A stretch of 64,000 nucleotides of DNA from Stigmatella ashevillena (lineage in GTDB: Bacteria > Myxococcota > Myxococcia > Myxococcales > Myxococcaceae), in contig NZ_JAQNDM010000002.1 of the NCBI RefSeq assembly GCF_028368975.1, positions 2,180,007 to 2,244,006 on the forward strand. The letters are read 5' to 3'. Shown here piece by piece: positions 47,560 to 54,842 of this stretch; positions within the stretch are counted from its first letter, which is position 1, and every line of letters begins with the position of its first letter. The position numbers and the translations under genes are program-made. The notes under the pieces are model-generated. The model made no database searches and was not told the origin of the DNA. It was given only the letters and a program-made list of their open reading frames with translations.

Positions 47560-48324
47560 ATGAACTTCGAGCAACCGCTCCAGGACTTCGCCCAGCGCGC
47601 CCCGCTCCCGGTGCTGGGCGCCATCACCGCCCTGGGCTTCGCGCTGATCTACTTCGGTCTTGGCGGCCTGGGAACCTGGCTGTCCCGCCGCTATTTCCCG
47701 CAGCGGGGCCTCGGGCATGTGATTGACGAGCGGCCTGTGCGCCCAAGGCAAGTGCGCGAAGAGGTGGGGCTGTCGCTTGTATCGATCGCCATCTTTGGGG
47801 GGTATGGCGCGCTCACGATGGCGCTGGATGCCCGGGGCCTCACCCACATCCGGTGGGAGCTGACCGCGACCGGGCTTGCCGTCGATCTGCTGGTTCTTGC
47901 GCTCTGGAACGAGGTGCACTTCTACGCCTGCCACCGCCTGCTCCACACGCGCTGGCTCTTCCGCCATGTGCATTCCGTCCACCATCGCTCCCGGGTACCG
48001 ACGCCCTTCTCGACGTACAGCTTCCACCCGGTGGAGGCCCTCCTGCTCGGCAGCGTGATGGTGACCCTTCAGCTCTTCTACGACCTGAGCTTCTGGGCTG
48101 CCCTCACCTACCCCGTGGTGAGCCTGTTGATGAACACCCTCGGCCACCTCAACTATGCGCTCGCCACCCCCTCCTGGTGGAGCACCCCGTTGCGCGCCAG
48201 CGAGCACCACTCGCTGCACCATCGCAGGGTGAACGGGAACTTTGGCTTCCAGAGCCCAGTGCTCGATCGGCTCCTGGGGACCGAACTCCCCTCTCAAGAG
48301 CCCATCGCTACTCGGGAAGGGTGA
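47560..48324 (+). CDS. Sterol desaturase/fatty acid hydroxylase superfamily protein
   Basis: This 254-residue membrane protein has the histidine boxes of the superfamily: HFYACHRLLH, HVHSVHH and EHHSLHHRRVNGNFG. About four membrane helices surround them. Members are diiron enzymes that hydroxylate or desaturate lipids, sterols or carotenoids at the membrane. It is 13 bp downstream of the GT-C gene. It converges with, and overlaps by 17 bp, the desaturase gene on the other strand. Confidence 0.9.
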   Translation: MNFEQPLQDFAQRAPLPVLGAITALGFALIYFGLGGLGTWLSRRYFPQRGLGHVIDERPVRPRQVREEVGLSLVSIAIFGGYGALTMALDARGLTHIRWELTATGLAVDLLVLALWNEVHFYACHRLLHTRWLFRHVHSVHHRSRVPTPFSTYSFHPVEALLLGSVMVTLQLFYDLSFWAALTYPVVSLLMNTLGHLNYALATPSWWSTPLRASEHHSLHHRRVNGNFGFQSPVLDRLLGTELPSQEPIATREG

Positions 48325-49180
48325 CGCGGACGGTCGGCTGGGGAGCAGGGCGAAGCTTCCGGGCTTCGATGACCGCTTCGCTGGGAACGTGGAGATCCTT
48401 GGCGAGCCCCAGCCATTCCAGGCAGCGGATGACATGCCAGATGAAATCGAACTGGCCGGGCAGCAGGCCATGGCGGGCACTGGAGGGAAAGCTGTGGTGG
48501 TTGGCGTGCCAGCCCTCGCCCAACGTGAACAGCCCCATGAACAGGCCGTTGCGGGCCTGATGGACCTCGGCATAGGGCCGCTCACCCCAGAGGTGCGAAA
48601 CGCTGTCGATGGCGTCCCCCAGGTTGAAGATGAGCACGAGCATGCCCCAGGCAGTGGCCACGCCCACGGGCCCGAAGAGCAGGTAACCGCCGCCCACGAG
48701 CACCACCCCGTGGAGCGTGCAGAGGATCTGGAAGGGCACGGGCCGGCTCATGAAGGCGTACCAAGGGTCCGCCGCCACGTCCTTCGCCAGGTGGTTGAAC
48801 TGCTGATTGCTCCGGGGCCGGTGCCACCCGTCGTACAGGACCCGCAGCGGCCCCGCGATGGAATAGAGGAAGCACACCACGGGGTTGCGCGTCCCGATGT
48901 ACCACCCCACATGCGCCCACCAGAACCCGTCCAACACAGGCGAGTGAGGATCTCCCGGAACGTCCGTGTGCCCGTGGTGCCAACGGTGGTTGCCAGCCCA
49001 CTGGATGGGCGTGCCTGCGGGCAGGCCCAGGAGCACGAACAGCCGCTCCAGCCAGCGGTTGAGCGTGAGCGCACGGTGCGAAAGCACGCGGTGGTAGGCG
49101 ACGTTGATGGCCAGCCCTGCCAGCAGGAAGTAACCCAGGCAGCACGGCACCAGCCACACCCAGCTCAAGCGCTCAGACAT
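48308..49180 (-). CDS. Membrane fatty acid (acyl-CoA) desaturase
   Basis: This 290-residue protein has the three canonical desaturase histidine boxes: HRVLSH (residues 30-35), HRWHH (65-69) and HANHH near 220. Membrane helices flank them. It introduces a double bond into acyl chains with oxygen and a diiron centre. Its ATG overlaps the last eight bases of the upstream KAS III-diiron fusion gene, so the two are translationally coupled and probably act on one lipid. Confidence 0.94.
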   Translation of the reverse strand: MSERLSWVWLVPCCLGYFLLAGLAINVAYHRVLSHRALTLNRWLERLFVLLGLPAGTPIQWAGNHRWHHGHTDVPGDPHSPVLDGFWWAHVGWYIGTRNPVVCFLYSIAGPLRVLYDGWHRPRSNQQFNHLAKDVAADPWYAFMSRPVPFQILCTLHGVVLVGGGYLLFGPVGVATAWGMLVLIFNLGDAIDSVSHLWGERPYAEVHQARNGLFMGLFTLGEGWHANHHSFPSSARHGLLPGQFDFIWHVIRCLEWLGLAKDLHVPSEAVIEARKLRPAPQPTVRVTLPE

Positions 49181-51098
49181 TTCCCAGCTCCTCGAGCTGC
49201 AATTGGTAGAGCCTCGCCGTCACCTTCGCCGTCTTGACGATGCGGTCAGCCAGCTCGGGCGTGAGGATGCCGGAGCCCAACGCCGCCTCCAGCCGCTCCA
49301 TGTGCGTGCCGTCATTCTCCCCATGGTAGAGAAAGAACCGCACCTGATCCTCCGTGAGCCCGAGCTGCTCCCGAATGGCCAGGCCCCAGCGCCGCGCAAC
49401 GCGATTCCCCAATCCCTCGATGATGAACATGGCACCCAGCAGATCGAACGGGTTTTCCTGGCTGGCGCGGTGGAACATCCACGCGGAGAGCGCCTCGCTG
49501 CCAATGTTCTTTGGCGCGCGAGCGATGTCCTCCTGCCGGCCGCCCAGCGAGACGTAGTGGCGCTCCAGCATCTCGTAGTCGCGGTGCTCATCCCGGGCAT
49601 GGCGGATGAAGGAGGAGCGCAGCGCCAGATGTTCCGCGGTGATGCTGGAGGCGGCACGGGCGATCCACCGTGACCCCTCCACCACCTGCTGACGCAGGTT
49701 GATGAGCAGTTCCTGGTAGTCCTCCACGGTGAACACGCCGCGCGAGAGCTTCTCGAGGATGGGCACTTGCTGGAGCTTCCCCTCGAAGTCCACCCAGACG
49801 TGCGTCAGCTCTCGCACCAGCTTCTCACGAAGGGGATTTCCCGGCGAAGGCGCCAGGAAGGCCGTCTCGGCCCCTGGCACGGCCGCCAGCGGGCTCTGGG
49901 GCTCGCTGGCGATGGTGGGCGAAGAGAAAGCCACCTCGGGTCCCTGGGCACGAACGGGAGGCACCACGGTGAGCATCGCGTAGCAGGTGATGAAGCCGCC
50001 GCTCTCCGGAACCATGCAGAAGATGCGCTCGCCAGGACGAACACGGCCCTCGTTTACCAGCTCCTCCAACATCAGAAAGATGGAGGCGCATCCGGTGTTG
50101 CCACGCGTGGACAGATTGCTGAACCAGCGCTCCTCGGGAATGCGCACACCGCCCTTCTCCAGCAACTGGACGATGGGCTGCTTGAAATGAAGCGACGAGT
50201 AGTGGATGAGGCACCAGTCGATTTCGGCTGGCTTGATGCGGCCCTGATCCATCAACGCGAAGAAGCCGTCCACTCCCAGAGCCACCAGGGCGTCCAGCCT
50301 CCGAATGTCCTGCTTGATGGTGAAGGCCCCCGCCGCCGCGGCCTCGGAGAAGGACGGATAGTCGATCCAGCCCGGACCGAAGCCCCCGTCCACGCCGCGA
50401 TGGGCACCCACGTACATGCCCAGCTCATATTTGTTGGCGTGAGACCGGATGTCGATCCAGTCCACCTTGAGGCTCGGCCGTGTGGGATGGGGGCGGTCCT
50501 GAAGCACGGCCGCCCCCGCGCCATCGGAAAGCATCCACCGCAGGAACTCGGCCTCGAAGGGCACGGCCTTCGAGCTGTCGGCCACCTCCTCGTAATGGCT
50601 GGCCTTGAGCAACCGGCTCACCAGCTCGCTGGCGCAGACGATGGCACGCTCCGCCTCACCGCTGGCCACCTGGAGAGACGCCGCGCGCAACGCCTGCATG
50701 CCGCTGGAGCAGATGCCCTGGAGGGAAGCGACCTCACAGGCAGGTCCCCCCAGCGCCCGGTGGACCTGGCTGGCGAATCCGGGCAGGACGAGATCCGCCT
50801 GGGTGGTCGCGGTGACGAGCAGATCCATCTCGCCCAGGGTGATGGGCGAGCGCCCCAGGGCATCCCGGATGGCGTTGACGGCCAGCTCCCAATTCCGGAA
50901 GCGCGAGCGCTGCTCCCGGTCGATGGCGTAGTGACGCCGGAGGATGCCGTTCTGCGAGAGGACCCGGCTGCGCGCACGCGAGGGCTTGCCACGCACCTTG
51001 CCGAGATAATCTTCCAGCTGATCATTGGAGATGGGCTCGCCCGGAAGAAACTTGCCAAGGGCGGTGATGAACACGTCTTGAGGCATGGGACGGGACAT
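49173..51098 (-). CDS. Ketoacyl-ACP synthase III fused to a haem-oxygenase-like diiron domain
   Basis: This 641-residue protein is one uninterrupted frame. Residues 1-385 are a FabH/OleA-type synthase with an intact triad: Cys130 (LQGICSSGMQAL), His299 (WCLIHYSSLHF) and Asn334 (TRGNTGCASIF). After a 35-residue linker, residues 420-641 are a helical domain with metal-ligand-like motifs: Glu474 (VVEGSRW), His500/His505 (RHARDEHRDY) and His592-x3-Asp596-x2-His599 (HGENDGTH). This is the pattern of TenA/UndA/CADD-like diiron oxidases. ATG at 51098 follows GGAGGGG. It is coupled to a desaturase. The product could be an oxidised or decarboxylated acyl-derived lipid, which is inference. Confidence 0.85.
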   Translation of the reverse strand: MSRPMPQDVFITALGKFLPGEPISNDQLEDYLGKVRGKPSRARSRVLSQNGILRRHYAIDREQRSRFRNWELAVNAIRDALGRSPITLGEMDLLVTATTQADLVLPGFASQVHRALGGPACEVASLQGICSSGMQALRAASLQVASGEAERAIVCASELVSRLLKASHYEEVADSSKAVPFEAEFLRWMLSDGAGAAVLQDRPHPTRPSLKVDWIDIRSHANKYELGMYVGAHRGVDGGFGPGWIDYPSFSEAAAAGAFTIKQDIRRLDALVALGVDGFFALMDQGRIKPAEIDWCLIHYSSLHFKQPIVQLLEKGGVRIPEERWFSNLSTRGNTGCASIFLMLEELVNEGRVRPGERIFCMVPESGGFITCYAMLTVVPPVRAQGPEVAFSSPTIASEPQSPLAAVPGAETAFLAPSPGNPLREKLVRELTHVWVDFEGKLQQVPILEKLSRGVFTVEDYQELLINLRQQVVEGSRWIARAASSITAEHLALRSSFIRHARDEHRDYEMLERHYVSLGGRQEDIARAPKNIGSEALSAWMFHRASQENPFDLLGAMFIIEGLGNRVARRWGLAIREQLGLTEDQVRFFLYHGENDGTHMERLEAALGSGILTPELADRIVKTAKVTARLYQLQLEELGNV

Positions 51099-53924: not shown

Positions 53925-54842
53925 ATGCCCGCCATGAACGAACCGTGGCGGGTGCAATTCGATGCGAACGTGACATTCCAGAACGGGGGCGGCCTGCAAG
54001 CGCGCGAATTCCGTTTGGATATCCCAGGAGCGGATATCTCCGATGAAGCGCTGGAGATGCTCTTCGTTCGCGAGCTGGGATTGCTCATGGTGGAGAGCGT
54101 GCGCATCACCCACAAGCAACTGCTGCGCGAGCCCCACAAGGGAACATCGAAGCCGGTGAGAACGGAGAACAGCGCGCCCGCCCGCAGGTTGATCGAGCTG
54201 AGCCACGTGGTTCATCACGGCATGGTGACCTACCCCGGCCTGCCCGCTCCCGAGCTGACGGACCACATGACGCGCGAGGACTCGCGCGCACGCTATGCCG
54301 AGGGTGCGACCTTTCACATCGGCCGCATCTCCATGGTCTCGAACACCGGTACCTACCTCGACACGCCGTTCCACCGGTTCGACGGCCGACCCGATCTCGC
54401 CGCCCTCCCCTTGAGCTCCGTCGCGGACCTGGAGGGCCTCGTGGTCCGCGTGCAGGACCGCCACAGCCGGGGCGTGGATCGCAATCTCCTGCTGCCATTC
54501 GACGTGCGTGGGCGCGCCGTGCTCCTCCACACGGGATGGGACCGGCGATGGGGCACTGAGCAATATGGGGTGGACGCTCCGTTCCTCACGCGGGACGGTG
54601 CTGCCTGGCTGGCGGACCAAGGGGTGGCACTCGTTGGCATCGACTCCGTCAACATCGATGACATGGGTGACAAGAGTCGGCCCGCCCACACCCTTCTGCT
54701 CGACGCGAGCATCCCCATCGTGGAGCACCTCCGAGGCCTGGAGCAGCTCCCTCCGCAGGGCTTCCGCTTCTCCGCGCCCCCCGTGCGCGTCCAGGGGATG
54801 GGGACGTTCCCAGTGAGGGCCTACGCCGTGCTCGGCGGTTGA
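53925..54842 (+). CDS. Cyclase/kynurenine-formamidase-like family protein with altered metal motif
   Basis: This 305-residue protein has a distinct N-terminal region of about 75 residues (VQFDANVTFQNGGGLQAREF). A cyclase (PF04199-type) domain follows: LIELSHVVHHGMVTYPGLP, then MVSNTGTYLDTPFHRF, then LLHTGWDRRWG and GIDSVNIDDM. In the family the motif is HxGTHxDxPxH with zinc-binding histidines; here two of them are Asn and Tyr. The Asp and last His remain. Activity may therefore differ from amidase chemistry. Confidence 0.8.
   Translation: MPAMNEPWRVQFDANVTFQNGGGLQAREFRLDIPGADISDEALEMLFVRELGLLMVESVRITHKQLLREPHKGTSKPVRTENSAPARRLIELSHVVHHGMVTYPGLPAPELTDHMTREDSRARYAEGATFHIGRISMVSNTGTYLDTPFHRFDGRPDLAALPLSSVADLEGLVVRVQDRHSRGVDRNLLLPFDVRGRAVLLHTGWDRRWGTEQYGVDAPFLTRDGAAWLADQGVALVGIDSVNIDDMGDKSRPAHTLLLDASIPIVEHLRGLEQLPPQGFRFSAPPVRVQGMGTFPVRAYAVLGG

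Follow-up and report, generated by a model that had tools for sequence, protein, structure and literature searches.

The locus lies in a 64,000-nt stretch of the Stigmatella ashevillena genome (GCF_028368975.1, contig NZ_JAQNDM010000002.1, positions 2,180,007–2,244,006), referred to below as the window. A minus-strand gene (49173..51098) encodes here a protein of 641 aa, followed by a stop codon, in which a ketosynthase (KS) domain (residues 1–380, 49959..51098) is joined through a linker (residues 381–415, 49854..49958) to a haem-oxygenase-like dimetal oxidase (HDO) domain (residues 416–641, 49176..49853). An earlier note on this DNA had proposed such a fusion at 49173–51098, and an open frame is found exactly there, with both halves scoring far above chance; its strand is minus, whereas the plus-strand reading of the same interval does not give the KS-HDO protein. 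The assignment draws on profile, structure-database, conservation and dN/dS evidence. In comparisons of the window fusion with three fusions of other Myxococcaceae entries (L005, L025 and L024), dN/dS is about 0.10–0.13 for KS and 0.07–0.15 for HDO, and the linker is under weak constraint (about 0.5–0.9 over 23–32 codons).

The start of a fatty acid desaturase gene (PF00487, 9.1e-22; 48308..49180, minus strand) overlaps the stop of the fusion by 8 bases and is followed by a convergent plus-strand gene for a fatty acid hydroxylase family protein (PF04116, 5.6e-27; 47560..48324). By blast, a desaturase is present beside 8 of the 21 related entries with a fused gene and 7 of the 31 with split genes (15/52), while a hydroxylase homologue neighbors nine of the 21 fusions and lies upstream of the fusion in L025 and L031. 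In turn, in split entries KS is preceded by a gene encoding a six-His protein, protein X, which matches nothing in Pfam, NCBIfam or PHROG. Genes of the membrane iron-oxidase type accompany many KS-HDO copies. A relationship of X to the fatty acid hydroxylases is unsupported (hhalign probability 0.1% for A4 against A5, with only 4 rows), and it is only their shared position upstream of KS, X with split and the hydroxylase with fused genes, that suggests equivalent work for the two.

We found that KS directly precedes HDO in 35 of 59 related loci, as a fusion in nine and as adjacent genes in 26; a 36th HDO (L081) is cut by the contig start. Altogether, 52 HDO-linked entries (21 fused, 31 split) were compared with 32 HDO-free KS entries; L142 and L169 represent one locus, and L006 and L025 probably one contig. 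The KS-HDO pair occurs in Myxococcota, Acidobacteriota, Gammaproteobacteria, Obscuribacterales-type bacteria and Poseidoniales archaea, with Corallococcus, Myxococcus and Pseudoalteromonas among the carrier genera. KS and HDO share a single open frame in the window, as they do in 20 further entries, so that the fusion does recur elsewhere. The pairing is not a local accident, and a sequence or frameshift artefact is ruled out by conservation, dN/dS and the single frame in further entries. We found neither KS-HDO fusions nor DUF6999 described in the open-access literature, where most subscription papers are missing; a paper on Acinetobacter baumannii DtpC places an HDO beside katE and contains no ketosynthase under the terms searched.

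The third member of the module is DUF6999 (PF22523), a protein of unknown function, which adjoins KS-HDO in 18 of 21 fused and in all 31 split entries (49/52, as the gene that follows). Among 398 genomes sampled in the phylum of G087, all nine that carry DUF6999 (centre included) have KS and HDO beside it. S. ashevillena possesses one copy, located outside the window and unlinked to the fusion, and a control search matched DUF6999 in Caulobacter vibrioides as well. The model of DUF6999 (18 rows) reaches a pLDDT of 86.1; sequence searches gave no solved relative and Foldseek no match at E<=0.001, and the best VIA Z is 4.8, which does not prove a new fold. The fusion of the earlier note is real and recurrent, but the working unit appears to be larger than one enzyme and to include DUF6999 and the membrane oxidases.

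As for the ketosynthase, its best NCBIfam match is the StlD/DarB model NF005293 (residues 9–379, E=3.6e-118) and its best PDB match the StlD structure 5gk0 (E=3.9e-80), with about 40% identity over 380 residues and the same Cys-His-Asn triad. This triad, named in the earlier note, is intact in 84/84 KS rows and consists of Cys130 (50709..50711), His299 (50202..50204) and Asn334 (50097..50099). Yet the NF005293 score of 394.9 bits is below the curated cut-off of 450; other HDO-linked ketosynthases score 333–414 bits (L161, L031, L043, L140), whereas two HDO-free ones exceed the cut-off (L131, 621.5 bits; L064, 547.2 bits). The DarB model NF053539 gave 356.3 bits against a cut-off of 550, which is not discriminating here, since none of 185 sampled genomes, DarA-linked ones included, reaches it (best 532.9). 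In the KS tree, all 37 HDO-linked rows fall outside a 33-row branch that contains StlD and the DarA-linked ketosynthases (support 98/99). The tree omits 15 of 84 rows as near copies or repeats (L006, L027, L028, L044–L048, L050, L052, L053, L055, L056, L141 and L142), has long rows for L140 and L167, and includes as FabH references only L012 and L015, the two plus-strand ones of four candidates. Generic FabH-type elongation was rejected, as FabH models score 73–96 bits against cut-offs of 249–292, far under the StlD/DarB model. Judged by sequence, the KS half is thus nearest to, yet outside, the StlD/DarB group making cyclohexanediones and dialkylresorcinols; the earlier label of ketoacyl synthase III stands as to a ketosynthase with its triad, but not as to a generic enzyme of that class. 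Because it scores under the cut-off and lies outside the StlD branch, its reaction may differ.

The gene context differs likewise, the KS studied here being fused or adjacent to HDO. PMC3949708 annotates darA as a DAR-aromatase gene beside darB. Of the 32 HDO-free KS entries, 11 have a DarA-like aromatase gene as a neighbor, versus none of the 52 HDO-linked ones, a contrast that is suggestive, since 21 of the 32 HDO-free entries likewise have no such gene and the flanks of several HDO-linked entries span only about 1.5 kb. The window set contains no DarA-like gene, and the absence of a match at E<=1 in the S. ashevillena genome itself is uninformative on its own.

The HDO half matches PF14518 (Haem_oxygenas_2) over residues 508–631 with 45.1 bits against a gathering cut-off of 28.9, and its AlphaFold2 model (pLDDT 90.4) has the seven-helix haem-oxygenase-like fold, in agreement with the haem-oxygenase-like domain suggested earlier. 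Solved HDOs are among the best fold matches (CADD, Z 22.9; FlcD, 19.5; HrmI, 19.1; UndA, 18.8), Z to HDO-fold structures ranging from 19 to 25, and TenA, PqqC and haem oxygenase also give about 20. The closest solved fold is 3dde (Z 25.5, rmsd 1.9, 217 aligned), an HO-fold protein from Shewanella denitrificans whose function is unknown and which, unlike KS-HDO, is not fused and which keeps a His near the Asp507 position in the sequence alignment. A haem oxygenase proper was rejected: the invariant columns (33 rows) hold no conserved His ahead of His500, the proximal haem His of haem oxygenases being located on the first helix.

The metal-ligand positions are conserved in all 52 readable rows at Glu504 (49587..49589, the first canonical ligand), Asp507 (49578..49580), Glu561 (49416..49418) and each of His592, Asp596 and His599 of the HxxxDxxH motif (49302..49325). 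The resulting E-D-E-H-D-H keeps five of the six positions of the HDO motif E-H-E-H-(D/E)-H and departs from the standard at Asp507, which stands in place of the canonical His, is invariant also in alignment A1 (33/33; a subset of the HDO rows) and aligns with the His of six paralogues. The Glu, His and HxxxDxxH motifs noticed earlier are present as conserved carboxylates and histidines, with this one exception. The L038 row, mis-extracted in the 52-row count (gap at every ligand), has the full set in A1. The KS-linked family shares with CADD, UndA, SznF, FlcD and HrmI the fold, PF14518 and the E-x-E-H-D-H positions, and differs from them in the Asp, in its ketosynthase partner, and in an additional conserved His500 and Glu474 (49677..49679; Glu in 51 of the 52 readable rows and Asp in the other). 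Glu474 is a possible seventh ligand, with a presumed equivalent in SznF. Judged by sequence, the site would be a dimetal, probably diiron, one.

In the reading that we favour, with a probability of about 0.4, KS-HDO would be a two-step lipid biosynthetic enzyme around which a conserved module with DUF6999 is built. Following its nearest family, KS would use Cys130 to condense a pair of fatty acyl thioesters, most probably one beta-ketoacyl and one alpha,beta-unsaturated, yielding a carboxylated 1,3-cyclohexanedione as DarB does; the DarB product is given in PMC5515871 as 4-carboxy-2,5-dialkylcyclohexane-1,3-dione. The tethered HDO would then oxidise this product with O2 at its putative dimetal site, in the simplest form by oxidative decarboxylation or an aromatisation replacing DarA, and UndA, as described in PMC13108848, sets a precedent for an HDO coupling O2 to decarboxylation. 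The ring lipid so formed may be of the alkylresorcinol type or more oxidised, with DUF6999 and the membrane iron-oxidase-type proteins (desaturase, hydroxylase or X) acting in the same pathway. The desaturase and hydroxylase neighbors agree with the unusual lipid foreseen in the earlier note; since KS adjoins cyclising ketosynthases, the product is more probably a cyclic dione or of the resorcinol type than a simple ketone or hydrocarbon, the other products it named. Counting against this explanation are the KS score under the family cut-off, the KS position outside the StlD branch, the Asp in place of a ligand His, the unlinked DUF6999 of S. ashevillena and, on an unsystematic look at the neighbors of the module, the lack of any gene for an acyl carrier protein or for acyl activation.

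It is possible, though doubtful, that the order is reversed and HDO first hydroxylates or desaturates an acyl chain which KS then condenses, with the desaturase and hydroxylase cooperating. Such modifiers of acyl chains are indeed nearby (in 15/52 and nine HDO-linked entries, respectively), and the UndA substrate is a fatty acid according to PMC13108848; yet this would bring three types of oxidase to bear on the precursor, and the gene order, KS then HDO, is weak evidence for the opposite sequence. An HDO half that holds one iron or another metal (cf. FlcD with one Fe, CADD with Mn/Fe) and performs different chemistry seems unlikely: Asp507 does replace a ligand of the Fe1 site, and FlcD is described in PMC11363339 as mononuclear after loss of two ligands, but the last three ligand positions and both Glu are all kept here, unlike in FlcD. 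Closest to the idea of the earlier note, and rather improbable, is a KS forming a beta-keto acid or ketone that HDO decarboxylates to an alkene or other hydrocarbon. The fold match with UndA fits, as does the ExxH spacing of the UndA ligands, which resembles E504xxD507; however, the KS-linked HDOs have Asp at one His of what PMC13108848 terms a 3H/3C enzyme, and the products of the nearest ketosynthases are rings rather than ketones (PMC5515871). That the HDO half is degenerate, non-catalytic or regulatory, leaving a plain ketosynthase, is very improbable, for although one canonical ligand is changed, the others are invariant from Myxococcus to Poseidoniales, selection on HDO is as strong as on KS, and HDO is retained as a separate gene in the 31 split entries.

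The recurrent KS-HDO pair, fused or side by side, points to an unknown oxidised lipid. We put forward, as a speculative extension of the two-step reading, an undescribed lipid pathway common to bacteria and marine Poseidoniales, in which a cyclising KS would pass what it makes on to a tethered HDO whose ligands, two His and as many as five carboxylates, would form a new, carboxylate-rich set, O2 chemistry would take the role of DarA and DUF6999 would be a dedicated third enzyme of new fold. KS, HDO and DUF6999 form a compact, widely shared three-protein module to which no product has been assigned. The fusion bears on the role of DUF6999 and on the tolerance of the HDO metal site to change (Asp for His), and an oxygenase-tethered ketosynthase would lend itself readily to the biocatalytic production of oxidised alkyl-ring lipids. 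It also offers an assayable handle on an oxidised lipid that Poseidoniales, Obscuribacterales-type bacteria and myxobacteria may share.

The gene at 49173-51098 (minus strand) encodes a KS-HDO fusion of 641 residues, in which a StlD/DarB-like ketosynthase (KS) is joined to a haem-oxygenase-like dimetal oxidase (HDO) domain. Its start is preceded by a G-rich stretch resembling a ribosome site and lies 122 bases from a divergent MscS-type channel gene (51221). Over residues 9-379 the protein scores 394.9 bits (E=3.6e-118) with the StlD/DarB ketosynthase model and also matches StlD itself (structure 5gk0, 3.9e-80), Cys130, His299 and Asn334 are kept in 84/84 aligned ketosynthase rows, and residues 508-631 score 45.1 bits against PF14518 (cut-off 28.9), which confirms the fusion with an intact Cys-His-Asn triad observed in the earlier note. 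Relative to three other fusions from Myxococcaceae, the two domains each show purifying selection, and the linker hardly any. Near the locus, 53925-54842 encodes a putative cyclase family protein (PF04199, arylformamidase-like), for which no tie to the KS-HDO module was seen.

The AlphaFold2 model of the HDO domain, built from a 33-domain alignment, has a mean pLDDT of 90.4. In Foldseek the top match is 3dde (E=3.0e-7, TM 0.81/0.83), with CADD next, and VIA-align ranks 3dde (Z 25.5) and CADD (22.9) before TenA (20.3), haem oxygenase and PqqC (both 20.0), FlcD (19.5), HrmI (19.1) and UndA (18.8). The choice among these kinds is not made by fold alone; residues decide. PDB entry 3bjd, an HDO now known as FlcD, bears the title of a putative 3-oxoacyl-ACP synthase, and our guess is that KS-HDO fusions could be one origin of it. 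The genome itself is rich in HDOs, with twelve PF14518 matches, ten of them above the cut-off and the fusion among them.

Published work assigns HDO proteins the motif E-H-E-H-(D/E)-H, to which SznF adds a Glu as seventh ligand (PMC11363339; PMC13108848). The six-residue motif forms invariant columns in six PF14518 paralogues of the same genome, in the first of which E to H spans 3 residues and H to the second E 54. The fusion carries Glu504, Asp507, Glu561, His592, Asp596 and His599 at these positions, with spacings likewise of 3 and 54, and Asp507 aligns onto the His of the paralogues (profile alignment, hhalign 97.5%, E=5.2e-12). This Asp is found in 52/52 readable rows and in 33/33 rows of a second alignment that overlaps the first in content. 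The neighbouring His505 is a poorer ligand candidate, since it is Gln in 6/52 rows, and His500 is invariant. Glu474, conserved apart from an Asp in one row, presumably lies roughly where the seventh ligand of SznF would be expected. Judged from sequence, the predicted metal site is thus a variant: its ligands would be up to five carboxylates with two His, or with three should His500 bind. The earlier note had claimed a diiron domain; the predicted HDO fold, the Glu residues and His592-Asp596-His599 agree with it, whereas the standard motif does not hold, as Asp507 replaces a His. The FlcD authors report that some 85% of the groups analysed show E-H-X-H-(D/E)-H and that about 9% were unassignable (PMC11363339); the present family may be among the latter.

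Looked for in other genomes, the same fusion was found repeatedly. When one genome per species was scanned, 59 loci emerged, in 35 of which a ketosynthase directly precedes an HDO, either in a single frame (9 loci: seven Myxococcaceae, one Acidobacteria MAG and one other Myxococcota MAG) or as two genes (26 loci). The latter come from Obscuribacterales-type bacteria, Alkalimonas, Cellvibrionaceae, Granulosicoccaceae, another Gammaproteobacterium, a MAG labelled Actinobacteria and Poseidoniales archaea, although MAG record names are possibly wrong. In one further locus (L081) the contig begins within the HDO, and the remaining 23, chiefly Desulfobulbaceae-type records, have ketosynthases without an HDO in the flank examined. 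A full-length match to the fusion is present in 4/59 genomes of kin (own genome counted), seven further fused copies turned up in a sampling of the phylum or class to which an Alkalimonas genome (G087) belongs, and the split form is also carried by a Pseudoalteromonas megaplasmid. Coupled translation is suggested by a 4-base overlap of the two frames in loci of the Poseidoniales, L043 for example.

In a tree of 72 rows, 37 HDO-linked ketosynthases, not necessarily one clade as the forks beneath them are open, are split with support 98/99 from a 33-row branch comprising StlD, nine gammaproteobacterial DarA-linked ketosynthases and 23 HDO-free loci. The fusion requires two changes on this tree and may have a single origin. 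Against the StlD/DarB model NF005293, the five HDO-linked ketosynthases tested (the fusion, L043, L031, L161 and L140) fall under the cut-off, and two HDO-free ones exceed it. A DarA-like gene accompanies 11/32 HDO-free versus 0/52 HDO-linked entries, several of the latter with only about 1.5 kb of flank. The label rests on the gene's place beside the ketosynthase, an arrangement known from a published cluster in which DarA is annotated as an aromatase (PMC3949708); no Pfam or NCBIfam model matched the gene. Two relatives of the genome (L008, L009) possess HDO-free ketosynthases with a DarA-like gene, thus dialkylresorcinol-type loci occur in this order too. In two Desulfobulbaceae-type loci (L064, L070), proteins judged by eye to be B12-dependent-radical-SAM-like and FAD-oxidoreductase-like adjoin the HDO-free ketosynthase, and are perhaps an anaerobic counterpart.

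We found that a third gene, encoding DUF6999 (PF22523), adjoins the HDO in 18/21 fused and 31/31 split entries, some of which repeat one locus (L142/L169, L034/L141 and probably L006/L025). The fused exceptions are L027 and L028, which both stop at contig ends, and the present locus; the single DUF6999 gene of this genome lies elsewhere (contig C2:5981653-5982474), and neither KS nor HDO was found in the surrounding 19 kb inspected. In taxa whose central genomes were picked as carriers of the module, so that the rates are biased, and with these genomes counted, DUF6999 was detected in 9/398 genomes of the phylum of G087 (KS and HDO adjoining in 9/9), 17/96 of the order to which the Poseidoniales genome G089 belongs (KS and HDO in 5/5 loci inspected) and 2/60 of the class of G090 (KS and HDO in 2/2). 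Within the order of the fusion's own genome it occurs in 2/60, as the unlinked copy and as a fragment in G060 (L093), where the 3.2 kb examined contain neither KS nor HDO. This fragment consists of two adjacent pieces, 86-89% identical and in different frames, and looks like a decaying module remnant. In L010 a diverged HDO (31% identical) stands beside DUF6999 at a contig end, so that any KS would fall outside the contig. A control search of 14 genomes matched DUF6999 in Caulobacter vibrioides only.

Membrane partners differ between the two forms. A small hydrophobic protein of about 190 residues is encoded upstream of KS in 29/31 split versus 0/21 fused entries; it has six invariant His in 13 rows (L043:9423-9998 and 12 homologues), matched nothing in Pfam, NCBIfam or PHROGs, and is a candidate new metal enzyme of the membrane. 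Proteins of the fatty acid hydroxylase family adjoin KS-HDO in 9/21 fused versus 0/31 split entries. Desaturases were detected by blast in 8 of the 21 fused and 7 of the 31 split entries, and a Pfam scan covering L161 and L166 among Pseudomonadota loci revealed further ones, one flanked by hydroxylase and KS in L161 and one upstream in L166. Beside the fusion, an 8-base overlap joins the desaturase start to the fusion stop, and the hydroxylase gene runs convergently.

The DarB product is given as 4-carboxy-2,5-dialkylcyclohexane-1,3-dione (PMC5515871), and UndA is described as an HDO able to couple O2 to decarboxylation (PMC13108848). We infer the metal, reaction, order of steps and product of KS-HDO as follows: the KS half would form a condensed, probably cyclic, product related to that of DarB, which the HDO half would then oxidise with O2. 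What the analysis observed is the fusion, its conservation, the predicted fold, the synteny and the lack of a nearby DarA-like gene; on the simplest reading the HDO would act on the KS product in place of DarA. The first interpretation, an unusual lipid, ketone or hydrocarbon made by such a fusion, is partly supported: the fusion, the triad and the predicted HDO fold stand, the metal motif departs from the standard one, and the product would probably be cyclic. Many HDO-free records bear family names of sulfate reducers, a life style that would fit a proposed O2 dependence of the HDO branch. No description of this combination with the altered motif and DUF6999 was found in the open-access literature searched. 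KS-HDO brings together two enzyme families, each already known, in a conserved pairing whose metal motif is altered and whose third partner is unstudied.
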